Assembly: GCA_947034895.1 (NCBI GenBank)
Contig: OX344764.1
Location: forward strand, 37,946,935-38,010,934
Source: Rhytidiadelphus loreus
Lineage: Eukaryota > Streptophyta > Bryopsida > Hypnales > Hylocomiaceae
Direction: 5' to 3'
Length of the DNA: 64,000 nt
Below, piece by piece: positions 4,998 to 62,614 of the stretch (positions within the stretch are counted from its first letter, which is position 1; each line of letters begins with the position of its first letter). The position numbers and the translations under genes are program-made. The notes under the pieces were generated by a model. It did no database searches, had not been told where the DNA came from, and saw only the letters and a list, made by a program, of their open reading frames with translations.

Positions 4998-7900
4998 CTA
5001 GAACTGACGATCAAGCTTGAGTAGAGAGGATTCCAAAACTGAAAGGCTTTGAGGACATTCATAGCGCATGTAGAAGACGGGACAATCAGAGTTTGTACAA
5101 AGAACAGACTGAAAATGCCCTCCCGATTGGCACCTGTTACATTCCGCGTGAGCTCCAGCCAGCTTTCTCTCCTGCTCAGCCATGTCATAAAATATAGCGG
5201 TTGCTGCTCTCTGCGCTCGACCTGCCAGAGTACAGTCTTGACATAGAGCTCCTTGCTCGTTTTCCAGCGGTTTTCTGTAATAAAAATAAAAGCACAAGTC
5301 AAGATTTGTTCCACTTCCTGGTTCACTTTGGCAATTGTGCACTTGTTACGAACATCAGTGGACATCAGGACATCAGCGGATAAAGGCCTCGATAAGAAGA
5401 AGCTTGTGGGTGGGCTAGTCACTACCTGCCATACAGGTGGAAAAAAGGACTGAAAGTGGATGTGAATTTGAGTCCAGATGTTATGAATAATAATCTCTTG
5501 AACTTTTATCATCATACCTGCAAACGAGACAAAGTGCCTTGGGTCGGAAGAAGTTGCTAACTAAGCCCTGTGTCCGGTTCGGTGCACCCACGTATGCATT
5601 TGGGGGAGGGACAGTATGGCTACCAGTAAATAACTCCCTCAATGTTGAAGGATCCGTAACAAACTCCAGAATCTGATTCATCAGAAGATTGCAGTATCAC
5701 AATTTGAGGCGATGTACGCAGTTCTGAACCTTCTGGAAATAAACTATACGTTCAAAGTACGCGCTAATAGAAATTGAGATATATCTAACAAGAATTAGAT
5801 CAATGATAAATGCAGGCACAGTAAACTGCAGCTCACACGGAACGATAGCCAACTAAGGCAACTCCGCTCATCCCATGTAAGCATACGTCAGATTGAGAAA
5901 GAGTTGGAAGTATAAAAGACAGAAAATGCAGGTTCAATAGTCTTACAGATTCCAGAGGCTTGCGAAGCTTGTTCTCAAGATACACATGTGTATTCACCGG
6001 AATGCCTCCAAGGAGTGCATCAATTGGATCTTCCGCCATGTCATCCTGCCACAGTAAGAGTGAGAGAAAACTCTAGATCTAGCAGTTTCTTTCTTCCCTA
6101 ATTCATTGAAGTTAACAGAAATGCCTACAACTTGAGCATTGACAATTACAATAACTTCGAATGTTAGAGACTTGAGTAAAAAAGATGTGATCATTGGCCA
6201 GTCCATCCCGCCTTCCGAATCTGTGCATTGATTAAAATGGAAGTTCTTGTAAGCTTAAATGGTGAGCATCAGCCGATTTACCTGAAGCTTGTTTGAGTTA
6301 GCCATGAGAATATAAGGCACCCTTTCCCCAATATGAAACTGCCGATCCGGATCCTTGCGTTTCAACCTCACAGAAAGAGCCACATGGGGACCTCGCCCTT
6401 CTTCAGCAGTTGAAGCCCCCACATGCTTGTTGGAACCTTTCGTAACTGCAGCTAGCTTTGTAATATCATGATCATCCACGCGCCAGAGACCCTGCATTCA
6501 ACCAATCAATAACTTAGTAAATGACCTGAAAGACATCAACGCGGAGTAGACCTTGTTTGAAATCATGAAATGATAATTGACTTCTCACTTCCCTATTCTC
6601 TCAAACGATCCAGTGATTAAGCGAGAATCCTCATAATAAGAGATCAAATTGAGCATGCAACATTACAAAAAACCATCCTGCAATGAAAACGAAAAACAAG
6701 AGTAAACTGCCCCTCCACGCCTGAAGATAAAAAGTGCCACCAAGGAGGAATTTCACTACGAATGACCAGAGCCTTACCCCAGTCATGACATACTCATATA
6801 AGCTCAACTTGGCTGACACCACTTGTCGTATGGAGTTCTTGCAATTTTCCAAAGCTCGTGATACGTCGTTTTCCACAAGTATGTCGCTCAGAGCCTGCTT
6901 GCAAATTTGTCGGACAAATCTAGGCACATCTCTCCTTTCAGCTTCAATACCTTTCACAAATAATGTACCCTGCCCTTTGTTTGCTTGGCTGCTCGTGTAC
7001 TGCTTGCCGGCGTACCTATTCACCTGCTCGTACGCCAATTGTTAAGTGTCAACAAAGGCGATGTGAACAAACTCAGATACCTTCTCAGAAATAAATGAAT
7101 TTTAGAATCGTAAAGCATATGCACAAATATTGAAGGGTGAAAAATGACCTGAAGGAGAAGAAAAGGACAGAGAACCTGCAAAATGAAATTTGTTCTGGCG
7201 TCAGTAAGAGCAAAGGGAACCCAAAACCACACGTCCAACAGAAGCTAGATTAAATATTCATGATATTTATTTCATGATTGAACATGGGGATTGCTGAAAT
7301 GTCAGACTTTTGAAATTTTGAAATCACCCTTTCGAACTTGAGAACAATGGGAGAGGGAAAGGCTTGAGAAACGATTTCAGCAGCTTGTGTGCCCATTTTG
7401 ATAGCGTCATCAATGCTGGCATCTTGGAAGCGAACAAAAACACTGTCGGTTTGTGCATAAATGACCTGAAACTTTTCAGAGACACCGCCAACAAGCTGCA
7501 CAGCCTGCTTACATGTGGCCGCCCCCATGCTGCAGTAATCAAATACACCATTAGAACAATCACGAATCTACATTAGACACAGTATCAAACCTCAGTGAAG
7601 CTCTCATGTTTACAAAATTGCAACCCCTAAGAATGTCATTGTTTGGAATTTGTCTAGCCGAACGGTCAGATTTTTGGTTCCTTTACTAAGAGTACCGATC
7701 CCAAGCACACACCAACTACCACAACGTAAAATCCAATAGCATGGGAGAAGAAAGACTCTCTCTAGAAAGTGGCTTGAACCCGCAAATCTTTGTCTAATTA
7801 CCACAATCCCTACATATCTTGAGATGATGTGAGATAAATCAAGATCAATCTTTGATGGGCACAGATGATCTCAACTGTTTGTACGTTACCTCAGGCAAGT

Positions 7901-10900
7901 GTCCGCTAATGGAAGTGCCTGCTGAGGTGATGCACTCGCACCTGTGAATCCATATAAAGCATTTGAGCAAAGCTGCAGCCAGTCATAACAATACAGATTT
8001 CAGTTAGTGCATACTGAACGGCAGATGCTACGGTAGTGGAGAATCAGGGCACAGAAGGCAATTTTATAAAAAATTAATTCCCATCACAAGTCACTTTGAA
8101 CTTAGACACCAAAAGAAGATGATTGCACCTTCAGTGCCTTCTGCCTCCCATCCAATACAGCATGCTCTTCAGGACTAATATTCTCCGTGGCCATGCGGTC
8201 TCTAGCTTGCTTTCGTGCTGTAATCAAAGCACCTGCGAGGAACTAAACGTTGAGAAAGTACATAAACCCATAATTTCCAGGCAGTAAAGAAAGTGTTGCT
8301 ACGTAGGAATGCTACGTAAGTGTGAATAAACGACAATCTTCAGAGTTTATTTAGATCAGAAAAATGTGCAATTTTATCATGAATAAGCAAAGAAGATTCA
8401 CAGTAGAAACGAAAGCTGATGACATCTGACCCACAGCACGCTTTAAAAAATTTGTCCTTTGGAGATTGGAAAGTTAATATATATCACAGAATATGAGACC
8501 TCGGAAAAAGAATTTGGATTGGAGGTTGATGGTTCAGTGAGTTGAAACTCATACCACATATGCGGGGTAAGACACCTCGTCGTACCGATGCCACTACAAA
8601 TTGAGCACCAGTTGGGCTGAGAACATCCACCCGATTAAGAAATGAACATTAGGTGAAGCATCAAACAATTGAGCATCACAAACTATACCGAACGTGCAGG
8701 TTGATGTTTAGTCCCCACTCAACTTAACTGACTAAAAACAGTTCTCCATGTATAGACAGATTTCAGGTAGGAAGACAGACTTGTTCGAAGAGCCCAACGT
8801 GCAGAGATAATGAGAACAGAATAAAAAGAGCACGAGACTAGTGGAGAGAGTTCTTATCAGCAAAAAATCCAATAGACAGACCAAACAGAATTCAATGGCC
8901 TACCTGGTTGTTAACAAATGAGCAGGCATTGTTTTAGCGTCCTCTGGATGTACCAATGTTGTGTAGCACCTATATAACAAAGAGAATCTTAAGGAACTTC
9001 TATCCTTGGAGAAAACTGAATCAACCAGTGTTCAACACAACACCGAAACCAGAAACGATAAAGCAACATAAAAAACACCTTCAAAAAACAAGTTCGTTCC
9101 AGTTCAAGCTGTGAGTTACAATTAAAATCCACGTCTTTAAAAATAATGCTCATGACTTACAAATTATGAGCCATAAATAATGATGGGTAAAGCGAAGCAA
9201 AATCCAAGATTCCGATGGGATCCTGCATGCAAAAAATCTCAGCTCAAAAGTAAGGAAGTATCCTCCACCTTTCATGATTAATCGACCAATTATATCACTC
9301 ATCTGCTTCAACAACTTGATGTGATGCTAATAGCAAAAGCTCATTACTAGCGTTGCCATTGACACCTGAGATGATCTACCCTACGCCGGGTACCTGATAA
9401 AACCCAGCAGTGTGACTGTCTTTTGGATGTATCAGAAAAGGACTCTCTGATAGTTGCCCTGTGTCAAAGAAGCCAACAGTCACAGATTTCTGAAAAGGAA
9501 AATAGTACTCAAATTGTGCAACAACATCAAAATCAGGATCAGCATCAGCATCCATTGGCTAGGCATCGATCCGAATCCAATGGCTGGGCATCAGCATCAG
9601 CATCCGCATCATCATAATGCCAGCATAATGCATAACCCAAGTTATCAAAACTTCGCTCTTTCACATTTATTGTGGTATTCCAGAAAAGTTAGACTGTTTC
9701 TAGACATGTATGTAGTTTTATGTCCATCTTCAAATACTTTGGGCTTCATAAATACTCAAATTTTCTTCGCAGGATACAGTAATTAAGAAGGTTGAATGCG
9801 TGTGCAGGACTTCTTTTCTTTTCTATTAATGCTCATGATTTCCTACACTAAATCTAATTCGAATAACATCAAAAAATACAGAACTCACCGTTCAAAGTTG
9901 TCCCGCCTAGAAGCCAACCTTCTCTGCGTGCACTTCGTAGGAGCAAGCTCTGTGACCAGTGCAATAATAAAGTCAGGCATACTAAAAATCAATTTCCTGC
10001 ATCATTATTAAATCGGAATAACAGAGTAGAAGGATTCCAAAATGCAAGGCCCATGACTTGATGAATCAATCCACTTACTTGAACTCGCACCATTTGAGCT
10101 TTGTAGAGGACATCAGAAAGCGTCAATCCCGTAACTCTTGCCATCTCCACTGTCTCTGGAAGTGTTTGCAACTTCTCCATAAGGTTAAGAGAAACCTGTC
10201 GGACGACATGCGTCAAATATGAATCAACACATGCCATCACTCGCACAAGATTTGCCAGGGAGACAAATGGCTTGCGCAAACACCATGGAACACACGACTC
10301 GGACGCGAAGACAGCCTTCACAAGGTATTGAAGTAATGCCTTCAGTAGATATATGCTCAAATGTTCAAATGCCCACCTCAGCTTCATGGAGAGAATATGC
10401 TAAAAGTCGGGAAAGACCGCCATACTTGCCTTGCCAAAGCTCCGACACTGCAGCAGTTGAAAGAACCTCTTTGGGAGATCCTAAAAACAACTGTCCCCAC
10501 CTAATGCAACGCTATTCAATTACTGTGTTTTGGAAGGTAACCAGCAAGCAACTACATAAGAGTGTGTAGAGGATCTGAAGTCTGAAATCAAAGAAGTACA
10601 ATTCCACTCACATCTCCAACAACCAAGGCTCGGTAGCATGAGGAACAAAATTCCGTGGCGATACAAAGTCCGTACACTGGACCGCAAGGGCTTGGGTAAG
10701 GTAAACTTAAACATTTTTAATTCTCTTACTGAGGAAAAGAAATGAAAAAGAAGTACTCTTAAGATAATGGGGGCATCGATTTTGAGATGCAGGCCAAAAG
10801 ACACTTAACTCTAGCCACTGGCAAAAGACAAGCTCACCTGAGAACACTCTCCCAGAGTGAAGGTAGAGAGGTTAAATGACACCAGCACAACTCGAAGCAT

Positions 10901-13900
10901 GTCAATAACCAGTCGTCCCTCTACGTAGGCCCGAAAGACTTCTTGATTAGAAGTTGAAGTCATACGCGCTTGCTGTCTCACCCAATGCTTTCCATAAGTC
11001 ACAACTGATTTCACCTGTAAAATTCACAGATATCAACTTTAAAATCTATTATATGATCAACCACACCACACGCTCGATCAAGTCTAACCCCACCAGCACT
11101 CACCCTTATAAAAGCATCATGAACGTAATGAATGGGCATGAAGACAGACGATACCTCAGTTGTTTGGCCCTTCCGTCGACCAATATCAAAAGCTCCCAGC
11201 TTTAGGACCTTGAAACGTTCTGCTATATACCGCAAGCTCTCCTTCATTTGATAAACACATACTACATCCGGATCGATCTCCCAAAAAAAGAACTCGCGCC
11301 ACGCTGTTAGCATAGCTGGTTCAGAGTCAAACTTGCGAACCTCAACTCCTGGTAGTGCCCCTTGGTGAGGACTCTTGCCATAGGTGAAAACAACCTTTCT
11401 TGTCCTATCTTGATGCCCCGGAAAGCGAAGAATGTGAGATATCACAAGCACCGGGTCCCGTGATGGAATTGCCGAGCCCCCACCTACTAGGCTGGTGAGG
11501 CCCTCAATGTCTGTGACACTGGCTTCCACATCTCCAGGGGACCCTGATCCGATTCCCCCACTGACCACTGTCGTGCTCGGCTTCACAGGAGGTTCAGATC
11601 GTCCTCTTCCTTTACCCCTACCCCTGCCTCTTCCTGATTTGACTGGAGAAGAGATGCTGATTTCCTTAGTTTCCGGCAGCAGTCCTCCACCAGAACACTG
11701 TACATGCAAGGAAAGTATTCGTAATGGAGCAATCAGATTCCAAGTAGTCTTGTCAGAAATTGAAGGCTGAGAAGGATCGCTACTGCTTGAATCCCTTGAT
11801 TTCGGCTGCTCCCATACGCTCATTTTACTTTTAATCTGTGTGAAGTCCGGGAGATCCTCTTCGTCTGGAAGAGATGTATCACTTCGGTCATCCACGTCCA
11901 GAATAATATCTCTACTCTGTAACATGCCGAAATCCTGGCCATTACAAGGTACGCTTGGTACGCTTGGTACGCTTGGTACGCTTGCAGCTGATTCCGTGAA
12001 CTCCATGTGATTTGTCGCATCTGCGGTCAATCCAATAAGATTTCGCCAGGATGCAACTAGCTCCTTGGAGCATCTCGTCTTCTGCTGATCATGTAGAATT
12101 GGCTTAGCCTGCTTGATTTCCACCCAAGAGCCTCCTGCAATAGCTGTATCACAAAAGAATCGCATGCCCAACTGCGAAAACAAGTTAACTATCATGTGGG
12201 AAAGATGTTCAGAGAAATGTAAACAGAGGATAGAAAACACATAGGCATTAAAATAACAAGATTATCTTTAAAATTCACAAAATAACGACTGCCGGTTTCA
12301 TATTGTTAATTCCGAGGTCTCGTTCAGGTATTTAAGTACATAAAAACACAAGATGTTCCAGTTATGCAAATAATACTAACTTTGATTCCCTCTTCATGAG
12401 AAGTCCAATCCTTCCAAACGAGACCTTCGGATCGCATCTCGTTCTCCTCAGCGAGTACAGTCAGCTCCTTTGCAACTATACCAATGTCTTTACCTCTCCA
12501 GACTTCCACCTACATCAGATAGTTAGATGTGGGAATGAGTTTACAAGCAGACCACGTCCACAAAGGACATGTCTTTGCTTCTTGTCCTTAAAAACCCCAA
12601 AATTCTGTAACCTGTACGAATATAACATTAAGGCGAAAGGGTCATACCTTCAGAAACAAAAATGGTCCCCCATGACGGTAATACATAAGCGGTGTCCTGT
12701 ATTCTACAGTAATTGCAGTGATCTGCAAAACCACAACACCAATGCGTAAGAACATAAGTGACTCAGATACAAACTGATACTGAGGGCAGAAAACCCGCAT
12801 ACGCCAGAGACTTTACGCTAAGTGAATGCAAGTTCTGTTTTTTGTCAAAAAATTAAAATTTCTGCAAAAAGAACTCAATCTGATTCAGAATTTGGATTCG
12901 ACTTCCTTCCTTCAGTTGTTGCTTAGAAAAAGTGCCAAATTCCATCATCACTTGATCCACAATACAGCAAAAATGAGCGACTCCTCTCAGAAGTCAAAAT
13001 GACTTACAAATTGATCACAGGAGACACCCGTTTTCTTCCGGCTGGCTAACACTTTACGATTGAGATGTTCTTTGACAGTGTCCAGAAGGCCTTCGTTTAA
13101 GGGCACAACATTCCCATCAATGTTGCACACGGGAGCTGGAAACCAGAAATAGGGCACGAAATCTGCTCCACAAACCAACTTAACTCTTCAGTTCCAAAAA
13201 TTTGATACAACTTAAAACTTCTGAAGATCATACTCACTCTTAACAGTATACGCGTATTTGTGTGGGATATCGTCAACGTTTGTCTGGATACTCGACATCA
13301 CAAACAACGAACACTGTAGAAGACGTTTGAGGGTCACTTAACGAACATTGAATTCAAACACGAAATATAGTGCACCCGAGCTGAATCCCAACACATTACT
13401 GCATCGATGAGCAGCTCAGCACAAAGTCATGTCACTGATGACAACTCAAGATTCTGCTTGGAAAGATTGCACCCACTCCATTGATCAAGACAGAAAGGAT
13501 GCTAGTATGTCCAAAAAGAAAACAAAACGCACTCACCATTTACGTGAACTGCAATGCTCACCCCTTCCGAATTCAGCCCATACAGTAGCACCTGCTCACA
13601 ACAAAACGGTAGAATAAAGTTTTCATCTTGCTTATTTCAATTGTGTCTCTCAAGAGAGCATATTGCCAGGAGTACATCAATAAATATGATCTGTAAGCAT
13701 ACTTCCTTACACGCAGTTCACTGTACTACGGTCTAGTGATCAGAAATTGCATATGAACGTCACGCTCCTGTTCTAGCTGCTAATTTATATTTTACCCTTT
13801 CAAATAGAATCTAGCGATCCAGGACAACGTCATCGCAGAATTCTATAAGGTAGGCATTCGGCCAAGTGAAAGAATGTTAAAAGGAAAGGAAATGTCGACG

Positions 13901-13984
13901 TACAGAAGGCGGAGTGGCGGGTGAAGAAACCGGAGCATCTGTGAAGATGGCGTCCAGCAACATCATACGCACGGGTTCTTCCAT
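4998..13984 (-). CDS. DNA polymerase delta catalytic-subunit homologue, predicted catalytically impaired
   Basis: Family B polymerase matching POLD1 throughout. Exons (minus): 13984-13904, 13591-13537, 13162-13008, 12722-12648, 12509-12381, 12171-11155, 11014-10838, 10490-10377, 10195-10079, 9949-9889, 9419-9394, 9222-9161, 8969-8904, 8616-8555, 8232-8129, 7972-7884, 7626-7591, 7529-7328, 7175-7149, 7023-6778, 6491-6282, 6045-5947, 5672-5518, 5274-4998. All phases join without a stop, giving about 1213 residues (human POLD1 has 1107). Motif A (LDFASLYPS, near residue 676), most of motif B (K-LCS-N-A-LYG) and both C-terminal cysteine motifs (CLVC..CQDC and CNRC..CTNSDC) are kept. Lost: ExoI FDIEC is LHVQC (about 320-324), ExoII lacks its Asp, ExoIII YxxxD is YSLHE, and motif C YGDTDS is YAQTDS. 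A Gly/Arg/Pro/Ser-rich insert follows ExoI. By inference it is a structural or regulatory paralogue that could bind the delta B-subunit. The 5' end is uncertain: an in-frame stretch runs upstream of the chosen ATG and more N-terminal exon may exist. The junction 7884/7626 is the least certain. Confidence 0.87.
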
Positions 13985-16036
13985 GGCCCCGGTGACAAGA
14001 CCACCACTTCCAAACTGCTGCTCCTGTAGTGCTTCACGTCTCCTTCATTTCGGTCTCATCGAACTTCAGACGCCAATCCTACATCCAAGAAAAAGGATAT
14101 TGGTTCCCGTTGCTATTGGAGGACACAGATTCTGTGGTTTATCATTCCGCAAGTGCATGCGGTTCCTCAACCAGGGAAACAGTAGAAAATCACTGAGTTC
14201 GTTGAAAGAAAAACCCATGAAGCATCTACTGAAGCTCGTGAAACTCTCACAATCGGCTTACTCTGTACAAGTTGCACCAACATGAAAATGATCACACAAT
14301 GCCCTAACACCTGAGCATCAACAACAATGCACACATTCTACGAATTTGCACAACTAAACCCCTGATGCGTCCCTCCGCCATGCACCATTACGCTACAGCA
14401 AAGAAAGATTCGTAAAATCTGATCTTCATGAATTATACATGCTGTTCGCTAGGGATTTTTTCGACGCCTTACCTCAACACGACGCACGATCCGCTTCAAT
14501 TCGCAATTCTCCGAAAAAGCATGCCGACGAAATAGAAAACTCAATCGCAGCCAAAGAATGGTCAAATTTCTTAACTTAAGATTTTTCTTGTCCTTCCTCG
14601 CCGATATAATTTAAAACCGGGAAATTCCAGTGCAGATATTGACGTGCTCTCACTGATCCACCAAGAATGCGAAGCTCATGCTGTCGGAGAAGCGTGAAAC
14701 AACTTCGTGACGAAGCTGCTCGTCGAGGCTGGAACCTGCTCGGCATTGGGAACAAGTTTGAGAACACTGGGCACGCGTCCGAAAACACACAGACTACAAC
14801 CAGGTCTGATTCGGGAACAAACCTAGCCTAGAAGGACGGTCCTATTACCACTTTTTCAAACAATAAACTATGTCATTTTGTATGCTCCCATTTGGAAACC
14901 ATATATGAGGGGAAATTTTTATTTTTATTTTTCATACATCGAATCATATGTCTTTTATAAATCACAAAATTTTCAGGGTTTTTTTGTGAAAATTTAAAAT
15001 TACTGTGATTTTTTTTTTAAAGGTGAATAAAATTCATATCAAATACAAAATTATCTAGCTAAAAGAGTCTAAAAATTCACCACATGTGTTTATTACTCTA
15101 CAAAACAAAAAAATCATAGTGTAAACCAAATTTCTATGCCAAGTTATAATTAAAAATTTGGCATTCCATGATTATAGGTTCAAATTACAAACTACAATAA
15201 CATTTCAAATTAGAATAGAAACTAGACTTCATTAACTTTTTTTTCAATAGTTGGTCTCATATTCAAAAAACAACATTTTTAGAAATGAAACTCAATCAGG
15301 AATAAGGAGCTCGAAGTTGCTATAATAAACTATAAGGTGTTTTGAAGATCTGTATTTGTCTATCAACATTGCAATCATCACAAAAGAATTTTGGAGAGTC
15401 CTACTTGCATTTGAATATCCTTAATATGTCACCACATAGTTTTGGATGAAAAATTGCTTTTATGTGTCTCTTGCAAGTGATTCACATTTGTTGATCGAAC
15501 CATAATGGTCTTCATTGTCCTTCTAGGGTTAGAGCATTTGCACCCTTGCATAATAATGTTGAAATTGACATTTCATAACTTACAAATCTATATTTGTCAT
15601 GTCCTCCAACTTTTTTGTTTTCCACCATAGATTTTTTTTGAGGCATAGACCTAAGACATTAAGTCCATGACTGCGTTCCTACGTATAGATACAATTATAG
15701 CTTCCCATTGTAGAACCTTGGAGGGGATTATCAATCTTGTCCTTTTCAAGATTTTAATGCGGCTCTCTTACTTCCCTACGTGGTTTAAAAGGAAATCTAA
15801 AAGCACCCCTTTGTACAATGGAACAATGAATGAAGTTTTTGCTATGTGTAAAGTTGCATGAGTGTACTCATTGAATTCATTAATTGATGACTTTCCAACC
15901 CAATTCCAACCTTTTCATCCCCAATCCCCAATCTTTGAACCTCAATTGCACATTCAATGCAATAACAATTACATTAGAACCCAATAAAACTAAATTGGAT
16001 CCAAAAGTAGAACTCTAAAATGAACTACATACTATA
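13985..16036. other. 5' flank of the polymerase gene, then AT-rich intergenic DNA
   Basis: 13985-14820 has genic base composition and probably holds the untranslated leader or a first exon of the minus-strand polymerase gene. I could not fix its boundaries. From about 14830 the sequence turns AT-rich and no gene is visible. Confidence 0.5.
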
Positions 16037-40913: not shown

Positions 40914-41124
40914 TGCCATTACTGTCCTGGAAGCCGGTTGCCCGGTACAGTGTCATGAATAAAATCACAATGGCGGCAGGTGCATTTGAGCCGCCGCCAA
41001 GGTGGGTTGTACATACGTACTGTAAGTGAAGCATTCCGACGTCTCTACCGCATCTCCGATCGATTCACCAAAACTTGTGGCCTGAGGTGCTGCGATCAGA
41101 TCCGCAACTTTCGCATTGCAAGCG

Positions 41125-42528
41125 ATGGTGAGGTTGCCTCGGATGTTGACAAATATGCTTCGATACGCACGGAACCGCTTGTTGGAGTTTTGCGATGCGC
41201 CAACCGAAGTGCCCGAGGAGCTCTTGAACTCGGGGATCGGAGTCTTGACGAGGGAGTACAAATGCATTCACAATCCTGAGAGTCTACGCAACCGATCCGA
41301 TTCTACTCAGCAACTGCAGAAGGATAAGTGCACCGCAGAGCTTTCTCCCGCTATTGCGGAGAAAGATGATTTGGGAATGAATCACTGCTTGGGCGGTCAG
41401 TCGGAGAAGGAGAAGGAGGAGATTTACGGCAGAAAGGATGTGAACATCGAGCTACAAGGCATTCTGAGCAAACTAGAGGTCTCGCAGGATTACGCCTTGT
41501 TGGCGAGGCAGGTGAGGCAGGAAGGAATTCCCAGTGTGGAGACTCTGCGGGGCGTGACGTCGCTCATCTTCCAAAATGCGGCGATACATCCGACTCAGTG
41601 CGCCATGTACGCGCAGCTGTGCGTGCTCTTGAGCAAGCTCGAGCTGCAGGACTTTCCCGGAGACAAGAAGATTACGTTCCAGAGTGTGCTGCTGACTACG
41701 TGCCAGGAGGAGTTCGAGAAGTTGACGAAGCCGGAGCAGGCGGAGGAGCGCGACGACGACGACAAGAAGGAGAAGCGAGTGAAATTGCGGTCGCTGGGTT
41801 GCGTCCAGCTGATCGGGGAGCTGTTCAACAAGAAATTGCTTCCAGAGAAGATCGTGCACGCGTGCATTCAGGAGCTGCTGGGTCAGGACGACCCAAAGGC
41901 CACCCCGGCGCAGGAGAACGTGGAGGTGCTGTGCCACTTGTTCAGGACGGCGGGAAAGAAGCTTCAGGAGAGCACCGAGTCGAAGATGGCGTTCGACACG
42001 TACTTCGCCCGGCTGAAGGTGATCGGGAAGAGCACGGCGCTACCATCGCGAATTCAGAACATGGTGCGCAGCGTTTTCGACTTGAGGTCGAAGAAGTGGG
42101 TGTCTCCGCAGGAGGAGATGAAGGCGAAGAAAATCAACAAGATCCGTGCGAAGGCGAGATTAGGGCTGCGACCGGAGACGACAGCACTTCGGAAAGGGAG
42201 ACCAGCGGCTACTCCAAAGCTCTTGCCTGGGGGCGGAGGGATGGTACCTGGCATGTCGGTAGTACCATCGATTCTTGGGAAGCCTGGAATGTCCGGAGGT
42301 CGAGTGCCGGTGCAGCTGATCGACGTGTGTCGGAAGCCTTCGGTGCACAAGGAATCTCTCTTGAGCGTGCCCATGTCCAGTGACCTTGTGAAGGTGATGG
42401 AATTTGGGGCCAGCAGAGAAGCGGCCATGCCGAAGCCCAGGGTGCCTGACCACTTTGGCGTGAGGGCGAACAAGGATAAATTCAACCTGAGAGACCTTTC
42501 GCAGAGAGTGAAAATGTTTGACAAGTAA
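41125..42528 (+). CDS. Compact eIF(iso)4G-like translation factor (eIF4E-binding motif plus MIF4G)
   Basis: Intronless gene, 467 residues, starting at the ATG 41125 (MVRLPRMLTNMLRYARNRLL). Near residue 14 is YARNRLL, a canonical YxxxxL-hydrophobic eIF4E-binding motif, followed by the VPEEL segment seen in plant eIF(iso)4G. The MIF4G domain (about residues 105-340) aligns with eIF(iso)4G: NIELQGILSKL, then MYAQLCVLLSKLE, LGCVQLIGELFNKKLLPEKI, ENVEVLCHLFRTAGKKL, RIQNMVRSVFDLRSKKWV. It should scaffold the cap-binding protein and eIF4A. The C-terminal MA3 domain of full-length eIF(iso)4G is absent; the protein ends after a Gly/Pro/Met-rich linker and a short basic tail. The lack of introns in this intron-rich neighbourhood and a GC-rich coding sequence suggest a retrocopy. 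No poly(A) tract or duplication was checked. Confidence 0.85.
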   Translation: MVRLPRMLTNMLRYARNRLLEFCDAPTEVPEELLNSGIGVLTREYKCIHNPESLRNRSDSTQQLQKDKCTAELSPAIAEKDDLGMNHCLGGQSEKEKEEIYGRKDVNIELQGILSKLEVSQDYALLARQVRQEGIPSVETLRGVTSLIFQNAAIHPTQCAMYAQLCVLLSKLELQDFPGDKKITFQSVLLTTCQEEFEKLTKPEQAEERDDDDKKEKRVKLRSLGCVQLIGELFNKKLLPEKIVHACIQELLGQDDPKATPAQENVEVLCHLFRTAGKKLQESTESKMAFDTYFARLKVIGKSTALPSRIQNMVRSVFDLRSKKWVSPQEEMKAKKINKIRAKARLGLRPETTALRKGRPAATPKLLPGGGGMVPGMSVVPSILGKPGMSGGRVPVQLIDVCRKPSVHKESLLSVPMSSDLVKVMEFGASREAAMPKPRVPDHFGVRANKDKFNLRDLSQRVKMFDK

Positions 42529-45020: not shown

Positions 45021-48000
45021 CTATTTTGCCTTCTCTAAATACTCTCCCAGCACCTTGGATGCTAACTTTCCAATTGTCAATCCTTGCTCCGCCGCATGTT
45101 TTGATAGACTTGCATGCACGTCTGCGTCCACAAACAAGCCACCTCTTCGAACTGCTTTGCGAGGCCCTTGATAGTTCTCAATGTAACTTTTACATGCGCT
45201 AAAGCCCTGTATAAAACGAGCAGTTCTCAAATGTGAAAAACTTAGAGCAACATCACAAACATTGATGACATTGCTAAATACGAGGTATTCAGTCTAAGTT
45301 TACTGAAAACCCTACATACGAAATTTTCTGCTGAAGCAGATATGACTATTCTTCGAAATAATGTATGGATTGGACCCCCTGCATGACATTCCACCTCTTT
45401 ACCCAGCCAAAAACAGATATGAGAGACTGGTACCTGTCTAAAAACAAAGTCGCCAAAACCCTCTTTCTCGAGCCTTTCTGTCCTCCACATGTAGAAAAGC
45501 GGCTCCAGTACTGACTCCATCTTATCTAACTTCACTCTGTCCATAAAAGTCTCTGCTATTCGCGTCTGGTTCGGAGCTCCACCCAGCCATATCTGCAAAG
45601 TCAGCCAGACACTAAGCATGAATACTCCCAGCAATATGATGAACCCCAATTTAGCTGGAAAAGGTGCTAGTAAAACAATCATTGGATTCAGAACGCCATA
45701 AAGGTTCAATTCAATTTGGTGATGGCAAATATGCACAAGACATACCTGATAGCTGTTAGGTCCATCACCCACCAACCCAAGCTCAGCCATGTACGGGCGA
45801 GCACAGCCATTGGGACACCCTGTAATTCGTACTACCATCGACTCCGAAGCTTTCAATCCTACCTGCAAGGGAGAAAGGATTTATGAACTCAACAGCAGAA
45901 AAGAAACCAGTTTGCTCCCAGTCCTAGACTCAATCTACAGCACTGGCTTGCGAATAGTATACATTGGATGCACGCAAGAATCAACAAGCAGCTCTTTGCA
46001 AGTGTCTCTACCCCAAATAGAAACGTAAGAATTCCACGGCTCTTTCCATAGAATCCTCTGTACGACACGTTTCTTGAAAACCATAATAGTGAAAAACTCA
46101 AAAAACCTACTCAAAAATCTTAAAATGACACTTCCTGTAAGTGATGGGCCCAAACATGCTCAAATTGGTTATTAAAGATGACTCGTTTTCAACATTGGAC
46201 ACCAGAGTTTTCTAAAATTTCAAACAATTGCCGAGTCTCTCCCCTTGAGGTAGATTCAACAAAATTACCTTATCGAACATTGTTCGAATTCTCTTCAGAA
46301 TATCAGGTGCTCCCCGTTCAGCTTCAGCAATTGCAAGCGGGCAGAGTGGCAACGCTGGGCATGCCATGGCTGTGATGTTCAAAGGATCCACGAATCTAGG
46401 AGCCTGACAACAGCCAAAAACAAGAGTTGAAGATCAAACCTACAATTGGATCACATAAAAGTCGGTAGTCCTCACAATTGAGTTGCTCTATCACTCACCA
46501 GAAGTCCAACATTAGCAAGTGCCTTGGTGATGCGAGACCTCCATGAAGGACGAATATTGCACAGGATCATGTTTTGGTTGGGAGTGATGTGAACATCGAG
46601 TCTATACTTCTCAATCACCTCCCTCAGAGTCTTCTTCGCTTCGCCTTTGATCCGACCATTTTCAACGTGCAAGCCAAAAAACAAATTGCCATCTCCCTGC
46701 AATAATCACCCATTCCAATCAGATCTCCAGGTATAACAAGGAATTACAGAACAATAAAAGAGTAAAACGTACAACATCATTCACCTGCTCATGCCAGCCC
46801 AAGTAGCTTTGAAACTTGAAGGGAGGAAGCTCTTTGAAGGGCTGAATGGACTTTCCGAAATACTGCTCCACAACTGTTTTGAATTTGTGAATACCCCACT
46901 CCTCAACCACATATTTCATTCTTGACATTCGCCGATCGTCCCTGCGGCCATAGTCGCGCTGCGTGGCCACTATTGCTTTCACGACATACAATATGTCATC
47001 TTTGGCCACATAGCCCAGCTGATCAGCCAGTCGAGGAAACGTTTGTTCCATTCGGTGCGTCCGCCCCATTCCTCCTCCAACCTGAGGATCCAAGCACATA
47101 ATTAGTGAGCCTCTCAAATTCAGATCAAGAAAAATAGCTGAAGAAATAAATCGCTCTCATCATTCGACCTACAAGGAACGTCAGTTTCAGATGCTCAGTT
47201 GGAAATAACACATCCAACCTGACGCAGAAACTGTTCCACAACTTGATTCTAGAGCTCATAGAATAAGGGAGAGTTAGAGCTCCTAGCAAATAAGCACGGC
47301 TCTATCATCAAAACAAATAAAATTGAGAAAGAACGTGTAATATCAAAGACTTTGTAATAACACCATAAACCTAGTCACATTAAACCCTACCAAACCCTAC
47401 CAAACTAAACACCATTTAACGCAGCTTCTAACATAAACCTTGTCGATAAAAACATTCTAGAACATCTCTGGGAGTAGATTCTCTACAAGCGGTGTGAGAA
47501 ACAAGGAAGTAGCATCCCATGCAACTAAAGAACTGCATCGGTAAAGACACAATTTGCAGCAAAAGACGATCAGATCATCAAGTCTTGTCAATTGCAGCAT
47601 TGCCAGATTTTCTAGGACACCTCAGAGAGTAGATTCTCTACGAGTGGCGTGAGAAGCTCAAGGAAGTAGCATCCTACGAAACTAAAGAACTGCATTGGTA
47701 AATACACAATTCTGCGACCAAAGTCGATCAAACCATCAAGTCTTACATAGAGATTGTAGCCTTGGACGTCGCCATGTTCATCACTCATAACCACAATGCC
47801 GATGTCGTTTGTCAAAACATCCACCGAGTTGTCCCCAGGCACCGTCACCGCAATCTTGAACTTCCGTGGCAAGAACTGCACTCCATAAATCGGCTCCGGT
47901 GAGTTTTCGAAGTTAGTCCCATGCGAGTTGTCTTTCCTCGCAATAGTGACATCCTCCGTCTCCTCGTGCGTGATCTTCTCCCCATCCACCCAGACGTCGA

Positions 48001-49642
48001 AGTAAGCCCCTGCTTGGGGCGCCAAGAGCGCGGCCATCTTCCCCGCAAGCTCCTGCGCGTGCAGGTAGTCCTTGCTCTTATACGGCGCAGCAGGGGCAAG
48101 AACATTCCTGTTCACGTCTCCACAAGCGCCAAGAGTGGAGCCCAGATTCTTAATGATGCTGCTCATGACAGTTTTCAGATTCGTCTTCAACACGCCGTGC
48201 AGCTGGAACGTCTGGCGCGTGGTGAGACGTAGTGTGCCGATGCCGTACTTGTCTGCGAGCTCGTCCATCACGAGGTAGAGACGGTTGGGGACAATGCCGG
48301 AAGGGTTCTTCGTCCGAAGCATGAACTGGTAAGCCTTGTGGCCTGGACCGCGCTGCTCACGGTTGTCCTGTTGGTAGCTACCGTGGAACTTGATCAGCTG
48401 GACGGCGTCCTCGTTCACGTTGGGAGCCTCAGTCTCAAGCTCGTCCATCAGAGGGTAACGCAAAAAGCCACTGTTTTGCTTAATAATCTCCACCTTGCTA
48501 CGCTTGGGAGGCATCGTTGTGGGAGGTCTCACAGGCTGCACAGAAGCCATCACAGCTCGCTCACATCAGTGCTGAGTGTGCATCAACCTTTCGCAATACG
48601 TGTATTGCTTTGTAGAATCGAAATCAAAATCAGTCGGTTCACGGTAACGAAGCAACCCTCAAAATTATGTACACTGATAAGATACACGTCCAGAACAGAC
48701 ACGAAAGCGCCACTTGATCAAATGCTCAACAAGTGTTCATCACCGTAGTCAATATGCCCCTATAGTGGAAGAAAGTGATTGTAGAACATCTATCAAAAAA
48801 ATTTGACCCATAATAACTCTCGCATACAGTATCCAAATAACACATTTTTTGGTGCATTGGAATCCACACGATAACCTCGTTCGTTTGCCCACAAGAACAT
48901 ATAAAAATTGGACTGGTTCCATAATAGGTGACTCTATTGGCTGACCGTAAATTGACCAAGTATTCCCATCCATCAATACCAGCTCGTACTTTGACCCATC
49001 ATACCTTTTGCAGATAGAATCCAAACAACACATTCTTTGGTGCATTGGAAAGCTCACGAGAATTCTCGTTCGTTTGCCCAGAAGAAAACATAAAGGTTTG
49101 ACTGGTTTACTAGTAAGTGACGCTGTTACCTGGCCCTAAATTGACCAAGTATTTCCATCAGCCAATTCCGTCAGGTGCCCTTTGTCAAAACCAGAACCAG
49201 GACCAATGTATATCCCACACTTGCGTTTCTACATACGCCCATCACTAAGTTCACGACGACGTAAAACCAAGAATCCAATTCTCATTCAAAACCGACTCAA
49301 AAACGCAGATGAATTCGATTGCGACGATCACCAAATTCACCCATAAGGGTCACATACCGTAGCCACAGCGCGAATACCAAGCGACGAGGCCCCTCCACTC
49401 GCCATGGCGGCTTGCGCTCCTACCGAGGGCTCCCCATGCTTCCCGACTCGCAACCCCACGAAAGTGGCGAACGGCGCCGCGGGCGACTGGGCCACGGCGG
49501 ACAACCCCCCGCCCAAGCCCATGTTCGACGAGAGCGGCGGTTCCAGTCGCGCAATCTCCCACGCTCTCAACCTAATGGTTCTGCGCCTGGTCTGATTGCG
49601 GATGCGCCTGGCGTGCACGGTGACTAAATTCGTGGAGGCCAC
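45021..49642 (-). CDS. SIR: Assimilatory sulfite reductase (ferredoxin), plastid
   Basis: Reduces sulfite to sulfide with electrons from ferredoxin; carries siroheme and a [4Fe-4S] cluster. Eight exons: 49642-49358, 48535-47747, 47081-46785, 46696-46499, 46403-46269, 45862-45746, 45592-45434, 45206-45021, all in phase, giving 721 residues. The first exon (95 residues, Arg/Ala/Ser-rich) looks like a plastid transit peptide. Then come [56 protein letters not shown] and the cluster/siroheme cysteines in ACPALPLC and [19 protein letters not shown]. The last exon is the short extension typical of plant enzymes ([13 protein letters not shown]). Two ATGs just before the exon 2 acceptor (48553, 48550) are in frame, so a transcript starting in intron 1 would give a form without transit peptide. 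A downstream ATG in exon 1 (residue 41) could also be the start. Confidence 0.95.
47453..47745. repeat. Tandem duplication (156-bp unit) in sulfite reductase intron 2
   Basis: AGATTCTCTACAAGCGG at 47475 and AGATTCTCTACGAGTGG at 47631 start two similar copies that run to the exon 2 donor. The copy next to the exon includes the functional GTAAGACTTGATG donor; the other carries only a broken equivalent (ACAAGACTTGATG). Confidence 0.75.
48790..49165. repeat. Tandem duplication (187-bp unit) in sulfite reductase intron 1
   Basis: TTTGACCCATAATAACTCTC at 48803 and TTTGACCCATCATACCTTTT at 48990 begin two diverged copies. Both contain the TTTGGTGCATTGGAA and TCGTTCGTTTGCCCA segments at the same spacing. 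No coding sense. Confidence 0.8.
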
Positions 49643-60646: not shown

Positions 60647-62614
60647 CTAATTATTTGAGGTAGAGTCAGACAATTTTTTTGAAGATATAGCAGCCTTCAA
60701 CAATCCTGCAGCATCAACATTAGAACCAATTTGAAGTATAATACAATTGTATAGATTGCTGAATGAATGGCCAGCCATGTTGTTTGTGGAACCGTGAACT
60801 TGGTAGTTGATTGGGCAATTCTTTTGCATCATCATCTGTTCTGCTTCGAGGAATACTGAATCCGGAAGATCAAAATAATCTGTGAAAACTTTAGGTCTCT
60901 CTATCTCTTGTTGAAGTGTTGCAGGCACCTTTTCCAAAGTGGAAAGTAGAAACGTTGCAGGTACTGTAGCTACAACATTCATCGAATGTGGAACTGATAC
61001 AGTATTTGGAGGAATATCACCAAGAATAGTACGGTCAATAATGGAGGCACTGGCCACCTGATGCTCTTGCAATTTTGCATAGGCATCGAGCTCATGTCTG
61101 TGAGCATCTTGGAATGTTAGAGGGCGACCAAACAATTGCTCACCACTAATAATCCTTTGAATAGCACGATCTCTGAGCATTTTATCCACAAGATTGTATT
61201 TCTCGTAACTTTCTGCATCCCTGTGGCCAGTGATGTCCATTCCATACCTCGTAGGCACAGAACCTTCCTGCATCCGAGTAATTCCTGTGGTCCTACCACT
61301 CTTGTTCGTAAGAGTCTTCTCAGCCAAGCCAGGTATACTTGTTGTCATTTTTTTTGTAACCGTTGCAAGAGTATTTCTACCTATAGGACCTTTCGAATAC
61401 CACACAGCATCTGTGACCTTCCACTTTGATAGTGCTGTCAAGAATAGTGGATGAGGACCGGATTCTCCAGGTGGCCAAGAAGGCCTATGAGAAGTCATTT
61501 TTTCGTAAGTCTCGATGACGTCTGCAACTTGACAATCAACGGCTTTCCGAATGTTGTTTACACCGCATCTTGTAACATCAGCCTTCACAGTCTTTGAAAG
61601 GCTAGGGCTATATCTCAAAACCTTTCCCATGACAGTGTGCTCAATGGAAAAATCTTCAACAATCGTTGCTCTCATTTCAGAAGGTGCTCTAATGAAGAAA
61701 TTTCTCGTACAATACCAGACAAATCTGTATGTCAAACCTGAAGGCGAATTAGGTTGACACATAGCTTGAGCCAATACACGAGTTTCTTCTTCAAACGTAA
61801 GACAATCAGATTTCTTCACTTTTTTTCCAAGGCCAGCCTTAAACGATCTTGCCACAGCTTCATCACCAGCCAATTTAGCTCGTTGATATCTCACATCAGT
61901 GAATATAAAGAATTTTTCACAAGGTTTGCTAGATTCAATAGCACGCTTGTTGCAACGTGCACGAATAATTCTACCAATACCACGTAAGAGTGAATTGATA
62001 CTCCCTGGAGGATATAGGGAGCCGTCACGCTTCCTGGCATCAAGTATAAAGTGAGCCAAAAGATCAACAAAAGGATTGAGGTCCTCCTGTTCAGAAAAAT
62101 CCTCAATCGACAATGAGATGTCAATCTTTTGTTCCACACGCCATTCGTCAAAAGTGTTCCGTGACCAATTCTCGCCATGTTTGCTTCTACGACGTCCTCC
62201 TTCATTTACAATCCGCATTTCATCGTGAGAATGAGGTACAAAACGGCGTTGAGAAGCTTCCGCTGTGTTACAATCTTTGTCATGATCACTGTCACTTTCT
62301 GTTGAAGATTGAAAAGAACCTATGGAGAGGGAGCAATTTGGAAGCACAACTTCCGGAACTACAACTGCTTGAGCAGATTGATTCGCTTTTGATGCACCAA
62401 AATCAGTAACGCAATCATCGTGCAAGGCCGCTTGTCTCTCATCTCGAAGCTCAATTCTAGGAACAATGCAAGAAACTTGAGGAAAATTCAAAATAGAAGG
62501 AGATTCAAACTCAGAATCAGACAATGAATCATGTGGAACGACAATATCTGCAACACGCAAGCGCTTCGTGACAACATCGTCATCCTCTCCACTCCGAACC
62601 CTAAGAAAAGCCAT
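60647..62614 (-). CDS. Tyrosine recombinase, Crypton/DUF3504 type
   Basis: Single uninterrupted frame, 655 residues from the ATG at 62614 (MAFLRVRSGEDDD). The frame opens 51 codons earlier, but that part is low-complexity repeat. An acidic N-terminal region of about 150 residues is followed by the core-binding part (WSRNTFDEWRVEQKI, then YPPGSINSLLRGIGRIIRAR), which resembles the N-terminal fold of Crypton and animal DUF3504 proteins. The catalytic part shows Arg candidates 304/309 (TRNFFIRAPSEM), then KSGRTTGITRM with Arg 441 (Lys 438 replaces the usual His), TGHRDAESYEKYN with His 464, and Tyr 473 nine residues later, the correct spacing for the nucleophile. Such enzymes cut and rejoin DNA through a covalent phosphotyrosine. 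It lies inside a tandem array and beside the ParB-methyltransferase gene on the same strand. The intact frame suggests recent activity or selection. It is not a phage integrase by sequence. Confidence 0.85.
   Translation of the reverse strand: MAFLRVRSGEDDDVVTKRLRVADIVVPHDSLSDSEFESPSILNFPQVSCIVPRIELRDERQAALHDDCVTDFGASKANQSAQAVVVPEVVLPNCSLSIGSFQSSTESDSDHDKDCNTAEASQRRFVPHSHDEMRIVNEGGRRRSKHGENWSRNTFDEWRVEQKIDISLSIEDFSEQEDLNPFVDLLAHFILDARKRDGSLYPPGSINSLLRGIGRIIRARCNKRAIESSKPCEKFFIFTDVRYQRAKLAGDEAVARSFKAGLGKKVKKSDCLTFEEETRVLAQAMCQPNSPSGLTYRFVWYCTRNFFIRAPSEMRATIVEDFSIEHTVMGKVLRYSPSLSKTVKADVTRCGVNNIRKAVDCQVADVIETYEKMTSHRPSWPPGESGPHPLFLTALSKWKVTDAVWYSKGPIGRNTLATVTKKMTTSIPGLAEKTLTNKSGRTTGITRMQEGSVPTRYGMDITGHRDAESYEKYNLVDKMLRDRAIQRIISGEQLFGRPLTFQDAHRHELDAYAKLQEHQVASASIIDRTILGDIPPNTVSVPHSMNVVATVPATFLLSTLEKVPATLQQEIERPKVFTDYFDLPDSVFLEAEQMMMQKNCPINYQVHGSTNNMAGHSFSNLYNCIILQIGSNVDAAGLLKAAISSKKLSDSTSNN

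Follow-up and report, generated by a model that had tools for sequence, protein, structure and literature searches.

Within a 64,000-nucleotide stretch of the genome of the moss Rhytidiadelphus loreus, referred to here as the window, lies a gene resembling that of the catalytic subunit of DNA polymerase delta (POLD1), with replacements in both its exonuclease and its polymerase active site. The question raised by this locus is whether the gene is decaying, encodes an inactive protein, or encodes a polymerase that has become specialised. The explanation favoured here, with modest confidence and on comparison of sequences, is that it is an old paralogue of POLD1 whose product would be an exonuclease-less, PCNA-bound, specialised B-family polymerase catalytic subunit. 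Four B-family polymerases have been described in eukaryotes, according to the available text of PMC2669801. A further conserved member in mosses, ferns and algae would alter the inventory of plant DNA repair.

Gene structure

The limits of the gene (Table 1) and the joining of its exons in phase without a stop are as given in the initial annotation, which had counted 24 exons; the gene model and the spliced alignment of three homologous proteins, from Physcomitrium (P0002), Adiantum (P0003) and Diphasiastrum (P0004), give 23 instead. All introns are GT-AG and the joined exons are free of internal stops. Exon starts shared with the gene model number 22 for P0003, 22 for P0004 and 19 for P0002. 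The three homologues agree on 11155 as the end of exon 6; with that end the gene encodes 1212 aa, its frame open throughout and its donors GT. A first model, in which exon 6 ran to 11104, was of 1229 aa and is the basis of the residue counts, the Pfam run and the intron comparison; residue numbers taken from it are to be lowered by 17 beyond exon 6. The residual differences in the spliced alignment are at the gene ends, in an extra intron inside exon 6 (P0003), and in one shifted end each for exon 19 (P0004) and exon 20 (P0002). On the reverse strand, the frame at 14047–13985, above the ATG at 13984, resembles the P. patens N-terminus (ALQEQQF) and is closed by an in-frame TGA at 14047–14045. 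The two mosses may begin translation at different places, or the model may lack an exon further upstream.

Pfam domains DNA_pol_B, DNA_pol_B_exo1 and zf-C4pol were found in the 1229-aa model. By sequence, the best-matching chain of known structure is that of human Pol delta (POLD1) at 414 bits, with Pol zeta at 151 bits. A single copy of the paralogue was found in the R. loreus genome. A perfect 9-bp tandem repeat of 4.1 copies at 11948–11984 encodes SVP repeats in exon 6.

Table 1. Features of the paralogue gene (positions in the window) and location of the canonical POLD1 (positions on contig C4)
Feature	Position	Strand	Basis or remark
Pol delta-like paralogue gene	4998..13984	-	23 coding exons, 1212 aa; model and spliced alignment
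Exons 1-6	13984-13904, 13591-13537, 13162-13008, 12722-12648, 12509-12381, 12171-11155	-	
Exons 7-12	11014-10838, 10490-10377, 10195-10079, 9949-9889, 9458-9394, 9222-9161	-	
Exons 13-18	8969-8904, 8616-8555, 8232-8129, 7972-7890, 7529-7328, 7175-7149	-	
Exons 19-23	7023-6778, 6491-6282, 6045-5947, 5672-5518, 5274-4998	-	
ExoI position, LHVQC replacing FDIEC	11695..11709	-	motif read and clade counts
ExoII position, YQMKES, without Asn and Asp	11236..11253	-	Asn 0/51, Asp 0/51 rows
ExoIII position, YSLHE, catalytic Asp to Glu	10383..10397	-	Asp in 3/57 rows
Motif A, DFASLYPS, metal-binding Asp and sugar-stacking Tyr kept	9181..9204	-	Asp 72/72 rows
Fingers Arg, triphosphate contact by homology	8213..8215	-	72/72; role inferred from Pol zeta R1057 (PMC8881453, available text)
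Motif B, first part, RQKALK, end of exon 15	8129..8146	-	Lys 72/72
Motif B, second part, LCSNALYG, start of exon 16	7949..7972	-	Asn, Tyr and Gly each 72/72
Motif C, YAQTDS, first Asp to Gln, second Asp kept	7442..7459	-	motif read and clade counts
VNRYAG replacing KKRYAG (DNA-binding motif), second Lys to Asn	7006..7023	-	Asn 71/71 rows
PCNA-interacting (PIP) box, QGLVSNFF, adjoining CysA on its N-terminal side	5547..5570	-	strict Qxxhxxaa pattern
CysA, CX2C...CX2C, across exons 22 and 23	5232..5531	-	Pfam and pattern
CysB, CNRCQSGGHFQSVLCTNSDC, B-subunit / Fe-S region by homology	5082..5141	-	Pfam and pattern
Canonical POLD1	C4:3124529-3134555		30 exons, 1088 aa, no stop

The canonical POLD1 of the same genome

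The window and a canonical POLD1 are both on contig C4 of the 407 Mb R. loreus assembly. The latter is identical to P. patens P0187 in 994 of its 1088 residues, and its translation holds FDIEC, KFDLPYL, YCLKDA, DFASLYPS, YGDTDS and KKRYAG. A separate, normal POLD1 is therefore intact on C4, which rules out the paralogue being the sole POLD1 of the genome. Judged by record names, both genes are also present in P. patens (P0002 and P0187), Diphasiastrum (P0004 and P0185) and Tetradesmus (P0034 and P0145).

Only 2 of 22 intron positions are exactly the same in the paralogue (1229-aa model) and the canonical POLD1, where chance gives a mean of 0.22 and a maximum of 3 in 5000 draws. Together with the 33% identity of the paralogue to P. 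patens canonical POLD1 over 823 columns, this rules out a recent duplication of POLD1.

Partial copies of POLD1 lie downstream of the canonical gene in twelve stretches over 0.5 Mb (C4:3176001-3690000, L010-L021). These mostly carry the exons for approximately residues 611–740 or 713–1088, and the last is on the opposite strand. Neighbouring stretches may be parts of one copy.

Relatives and conservation

A search with the polymerase half of the protein (best 120 of 453 proteins examined) and a profile search (best 120 of 1349) were made. The best matches among those listed form a non-canonical family with, where motif C is present, the sequence Y-A/G/C-Q/H/N-TDS. Its streptophyte members are from Physcomitrium patens, Adiantum, Ceratopteris, Diphasiastrum, Klebsormidium and Closterium, with one row bearing a Chlorokybus-type identifier (Chlat1). 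Chlorophyte members are many and include Coccomyxa, Bryopsis, Chlorella, Volvox, Tetradesmus and Cymbomonas. The family motif C is also carried by Chrysophaeum and Aureoumbra, which are presumably pelagophytes, and Pelagomonas P0058, whose gene model lacks motif C, is a member by the tree and its other motifs. Relatives with the same kind of substitutions, which the initial annotation had proposed looking for, are thus found in P. patens, ferns, a lycophyte, streptophyte algae, chlorophytes and pelagophyte-type rows, and the substitutions are neither due to chance nor confined to R. loreus. Among the matches listed (best 120 of 453 and best 120 of 1349), none of the paralogues came from a named seed plant, liverwort, hornwort or Selaginella. 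In the databases the members are mostly named 'DNA polymerase delta catalytic subunit', given another polymerase name, or left hypothetical or unnamed. No report of the paralogue was found in the literature covered, including the available text of PMC7544198, PMC2669801, PMC6801657 and PMC6794406; bioRxiv and most subscription papers were outside this scope. The branch is apparently undescribed.

The window protein and its P. patens orthologue are 77% identical over 1047 columns by BLASTP, against 91% for the canonical POLD1 of the same pair (93% by another method). The P. patens record (P0002) lacks the C-terminal part. Identity of the window protein to the Diphasiastrum paralogue is 54% and to that of Tetradesmus 40% over 769 columns, where P. 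patens canonical POLD1 is 80% and 58% identical to their canonical proteins. The paralogue evolves faster than POLD1; its identities are lower yet substantial, indicating a constraint that is looser than that on POLD1 and far from absent.

Residue counts were made on the window protein (1229-aa model) together with 71 selected database rows. Excluded were two halves (P0024 and P0045), a duplicate (P0044), and the partial, short or distant rows P0048, P0051, P0138, P0140-P0142, P0170 and P0199-P0203. Two of the rows, P0037 and P0058, are blank at motif C, so counts there are out of 70 rather than 72.

Exonuclease motifs

The replacements at ExoI, ExoII and ExoIII in the initial annotation are confirmed at their positions. 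The proofreading acids of canonical POLD1 (ExoI Asp and Glu, ExoII Asp, ExoIII Asp) are not retained as a set in the paralogue clade: of the 44 rows in which each of them can be aligned, not one has the complete set and 12 have lost every member of it. The ExoI Asp is kept in 27 of these rows and the ExoI Glu in 5, never together in one row. The ExoII Asn and Asp are absent from all 51 rows aligned there and the ExoIII Asp from 54 of 57. By motif, the clade shares an inactive exonuclease with REV3, and proofreading appears from these residues to have been lost across it.

Polymerase active site

The earlier reading of YAQTDS in place of YGDTDS, beside a perfect motif A, holds. The first Asp of motif C is replaced in every paralogue row (Q in 46, H in 16, N in 8, D in none; n = 70), whereas all 55 canonical rows have Asp; it is therefore a fixed trait of the clade and not decay. 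The Asn type, YANTDS, is that of eight metagenome rows (P0130, P0134, P0193-P0198). The second lysine of KKRY is likewise Asn in 71 of 71 paralogue rows and Lys in 55 of 55 canonical ones, with (V/H/I)NRY at this position in nearly all paralogue rows. The canonical combination of YGDTDS, with both aspartates, and KKRYAG is thus not that of the paralogues. The metal-binding aspartates, which would be lost or drifting in a dead pseudo-polymerase, are kept, that of motif A in 72 of 72 rows and the second of motif C in 70 of 70.

The polymerase domain has 34 invariant columns out of 427 in the paralogue rows. Eleven metal, dNTP or nearby-contact positions, picked in the light of Pol zeta and RB69 work, are all invariant (hypergeometric 1.5e-13), a value that is a description rather than a clean test because the positions were picked after the residue counts and phylogeny is ignored. 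The glutamate corresponding to yeast E802 is not invariant: 65 of the 72 rows have E there and 7 have Q. In Pol zeta the active-site acids are D975 and D1144, and K1086, R1057, Y980, Y1093 and G1094 are placed at the dNTP or base pair (PMC8881453). The counterparts of these seven residues would, by alignment, be kept in the paralogue.

Published work bears both ways on the loss of the first motif C aspartate. In B-family structures metal is bound by the second aspartate while the first faces elsewhere; against activity, Pol alpha and two viral enzymes work poorly when the first is mutated (PMC8764526), and work on RB69 places the first aspartate within the catalytic triad and describes KKRY, which is altered here, as strongly conserved and responsible for B-form DNA binding (PMC3792054). 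The paralogue offers a natural test of how much change motif C can take before catalysis is lost, and a relative is carried by P. patens, a tractable model that is routinely gene-targeted.

C-terminal region

Both C-terminal cysteine motifs are kept, as initially annotated, so that the window protein has the CysA and CysB of POLD1. A CysA-like pattern is present in 59 and a CysB pattern in 48 of 72 paralogue rows, fragments included. Klebsormidium is without three of the four CysB cysteines and Diphasiastrum without one.

Of 59 paralogues, 47 have a strict PIP box ahead of CysA and 12 are without it; none of 55 canonical proteins has one, and the chance expectation is approximately 0.0016 per stretch. 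For this count 63 paralogue rows were entered, the CysA pattern being found in 59, and in P0038 the pattern fell on a zinc finger. Upstream of this region Qxxhxxaa occurs twice in 51,735 paralogue residues. Human p125 contacts PCNA at the corresponding place via a divergent sequence, GLLAFA, the mutation of which severely cuts activity (PMC7048817, available text). The consensus box suggests that the paralogue docks on PCNA, and CysB that it may pair with POLD2 or a like B subunit.

Six pelagophyte-type rows (P0054, P0056, P0057, P0058, P0121 and P0122) gave no Pfam match to zf-C4pol; P0058 retains a CysA-like pair. An NZF-like pattern, W-x-C-x2-C...C-x2-C, which these six carry, is near the C-terminus in seven rows: Cymbomonas P0038, Chrysophaeum P0056, Pelagomonas P0058, P0054, P0057, P0121 and P0122. 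Of these seven, only P0038 matched Zn_ribbon_RanBP in Pfam, at 23.6 bits, below the curated cut-off of 27. NZF-like fingers can bind ubiquitin, and other ubiquitin-binding modules are present in some lesion-bypass polymerases. The pattern is suggestive, and no more, of zinc fingers that might act as ubiquitin readers in some members. Residues 1–463 of P0038 are an ExoIII/AP-endonuclease domain (TIGR00633, 124.8 bits, cut-off 99); P0038 and P0044 are of the same gene, therefore this fusion may be a fused gene model.

Phylogenetic placement

Rows were first labelled paralogue or canonical by motif, and the tree was then built without the motif C and KKRY columns from 33 paralogue, 20 canonical and 6 outgroup rows. 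The paralogue rows all fall within a single clade (SH-aLRT 100) that has a long stem (1.51). Within it streptophytes are split from chlorophytes (94, 98), and Chlorokybus, Klebsormidium, mosses, the lycophyte and ferns branch in species order, which agrees with descent by inheritance. With viral-type rooting the clade nests among canonical rows, adjoining P0186 and P0052 (91, 85). The clade may be a sister of POLD1 or an offshoot of it.

The predicted structure of the Adiantum relative (pLDDT 85.7, pTM 0.85) has Pol delta as its top PDB matches. Taking the fold from this model, the protein has the B-family polymerase fold with motifs A, B and C that is seen in POLD1.

That the clade is instead an early branch on the Pol zeta side, and its members REV3-like extenders, is improbable. 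When REV3 pieces of the R. loreus genome were added the paralogue clade was kept (99/97) and REV3 joined it (80/98), with the canonical rows held together by only 22/48. A constraint uniting the paralogue with canonical delta is disfavoured at a p-AU of 0.032, calculated with one REV3 row that covers 36% of columns on a branch of 3.54. The REV3 identity of the gene is supported by a piece whose best PDB match is Pol zeta (128 bits, with delta at 61), and a working exonuclease is absent from both REV3 and the paralogue. A row this crude and long-branched makes long-branch attraction likely, and on this tree the clade may lie on either the delta or the zeta side; the paralogue is closer to Pol delta than to Pol zeta both in its PDB bit scores and in structure-aligned identity (30% against 22%).

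Function

The case for a conserved paralogue without proofreading, as initially proposed, is supported by the clade with its common substitutions and by the normal POLD1 alongside. A young pseudogene or an assembly artefact could be suspected from the TGA that lies in frame above the ATG and from an N-terminus that is not settled, an extremely unlikely reading given 23 open exons and relatives with the same motifs in many lineages and sources. The names of rows P0040 and P0055 suggest transcriptomes, and the P. patens record, which lacks the C-terminal part, can be aligned over 1047 columns. A young pseudogene is rejected on the open frame and the conserved clade of relatives.

More weight attaches to a dead structural or regulatory subunit, which would bind the primer-template, PCNA and POLD2 and either modulate Pol delta or block ends without synthesis. 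The replaced first aspartate, the altered KKRY and the missing exonuclease acids are as such a subunit would have them, the poor activity of Pol alpha and viral enzymes mutated at that aspartate agrees with it (PMC8764526), and in yeast the inactivated C-terminal module of Pol epsilon is essential (PMC7544198). The module is, like the paralogue, a B-family sequence kept by selection after loss of catalytic residues; it differs in that its polymerase and exonuclease are both inactivated (PMC2669801, available text), while the polymerase site of the paralogue is nearly whole. Invariance of the motif A aspartate, the second motif C aspartate and the listed dNTP-contact positions argues against a dead subunit, as does the precedent of PolB2 (PMC8764526), leaving this reading unlikely, with appreciable weight. 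A purely structural partner of POLD2 is possible.

The nearest precedent is archaeal PolB2 (Sulfolobus Dpo2), which also lacks the exonuclease motifs and first motif C aspartate and keeps the second. According to PMC8764526, it was formerly called inactivated and later proven active, matching the replicase in activity and extending mismatches and lesion ends. The likeness considered here is one of motif features; PolB2 is archaeal and small and has His in its motif C (HxxxD). Primer-independent PolBs are also active without the first aspartate (PMC7544198). By analogy, catalytic activity of the paralogue is likely. The initial annotation's 'probably without synthesis' sits poorly with this precedent and with the invariant motif A Asp, second motif C Asp, fingers Arg, motif B residues and Tyr of SLYPS, and its 'pseudoenzyme' is not favoured, as the replaced aspartate is the first of motif C in an otherwise conserved polymerase site.

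The specialised polymerase favoured here resembles POLD1/Pol3 in fold, domain order, motif A, motif B, second motif C aspartate, CysA, CysB and the site of PCNA contact before CysA. Unlike POLD1/Pol3, it has YAQTDS, VNRYAG, a consensus PIP box and no exonuclease acids, and few introns are common to the two. REV3 is also a eukaryotic B-family protein with an inactive exonuclease and is a candidate for similar function; the REV3 of R. loreus differs in keeping YGDTD and KKRYVG. The PIP box would anchor the paralogue to PCNA and CysB would join it to POLD2 or a similar B subunit, and primers would be extended unproofread. With the exonuclease and the KKRY lysines gone, mismatched or damaged primer ends would be better tolerated, so that the most likely use is as an extender, comparable to Pol zeta and PolB2, during lesion bypass or gap filling. 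The clamp-binding box before CysA argues for work at primer ends.

More tentatively, and somewhat short of even probability, the clade may be a fifth eukaryotic B-family lineage beside alpha, delta, epsilon and zeta. It would be older than the split of green algae and land plants, and its members would be exonuclease-less, PCNA-anchored extenders or gap fillers with Gln, His or Asn in motif C, some algae having ubiquitin-reader-like fingers and one gene model an AP endonuclease. Many land plants would have lost it, seed plants among them on the matches listed. Confidence in this is slightly reduced because the viral-type-rooted tree can nest the clade inside canonical delta.

Other features of the window

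An ORF with a MIF4G domain is present at 41086–42525 on the forward strand. On the reverse strand, two open frames at 45245–48565 match nitrite/sulfite reductase domains and are perhaps a single gene, and a 712-aa open frame at 60650–62785 matches DUF3504 with an E value of 2.7e-6 (28 bits, curated cut-off 29.7).
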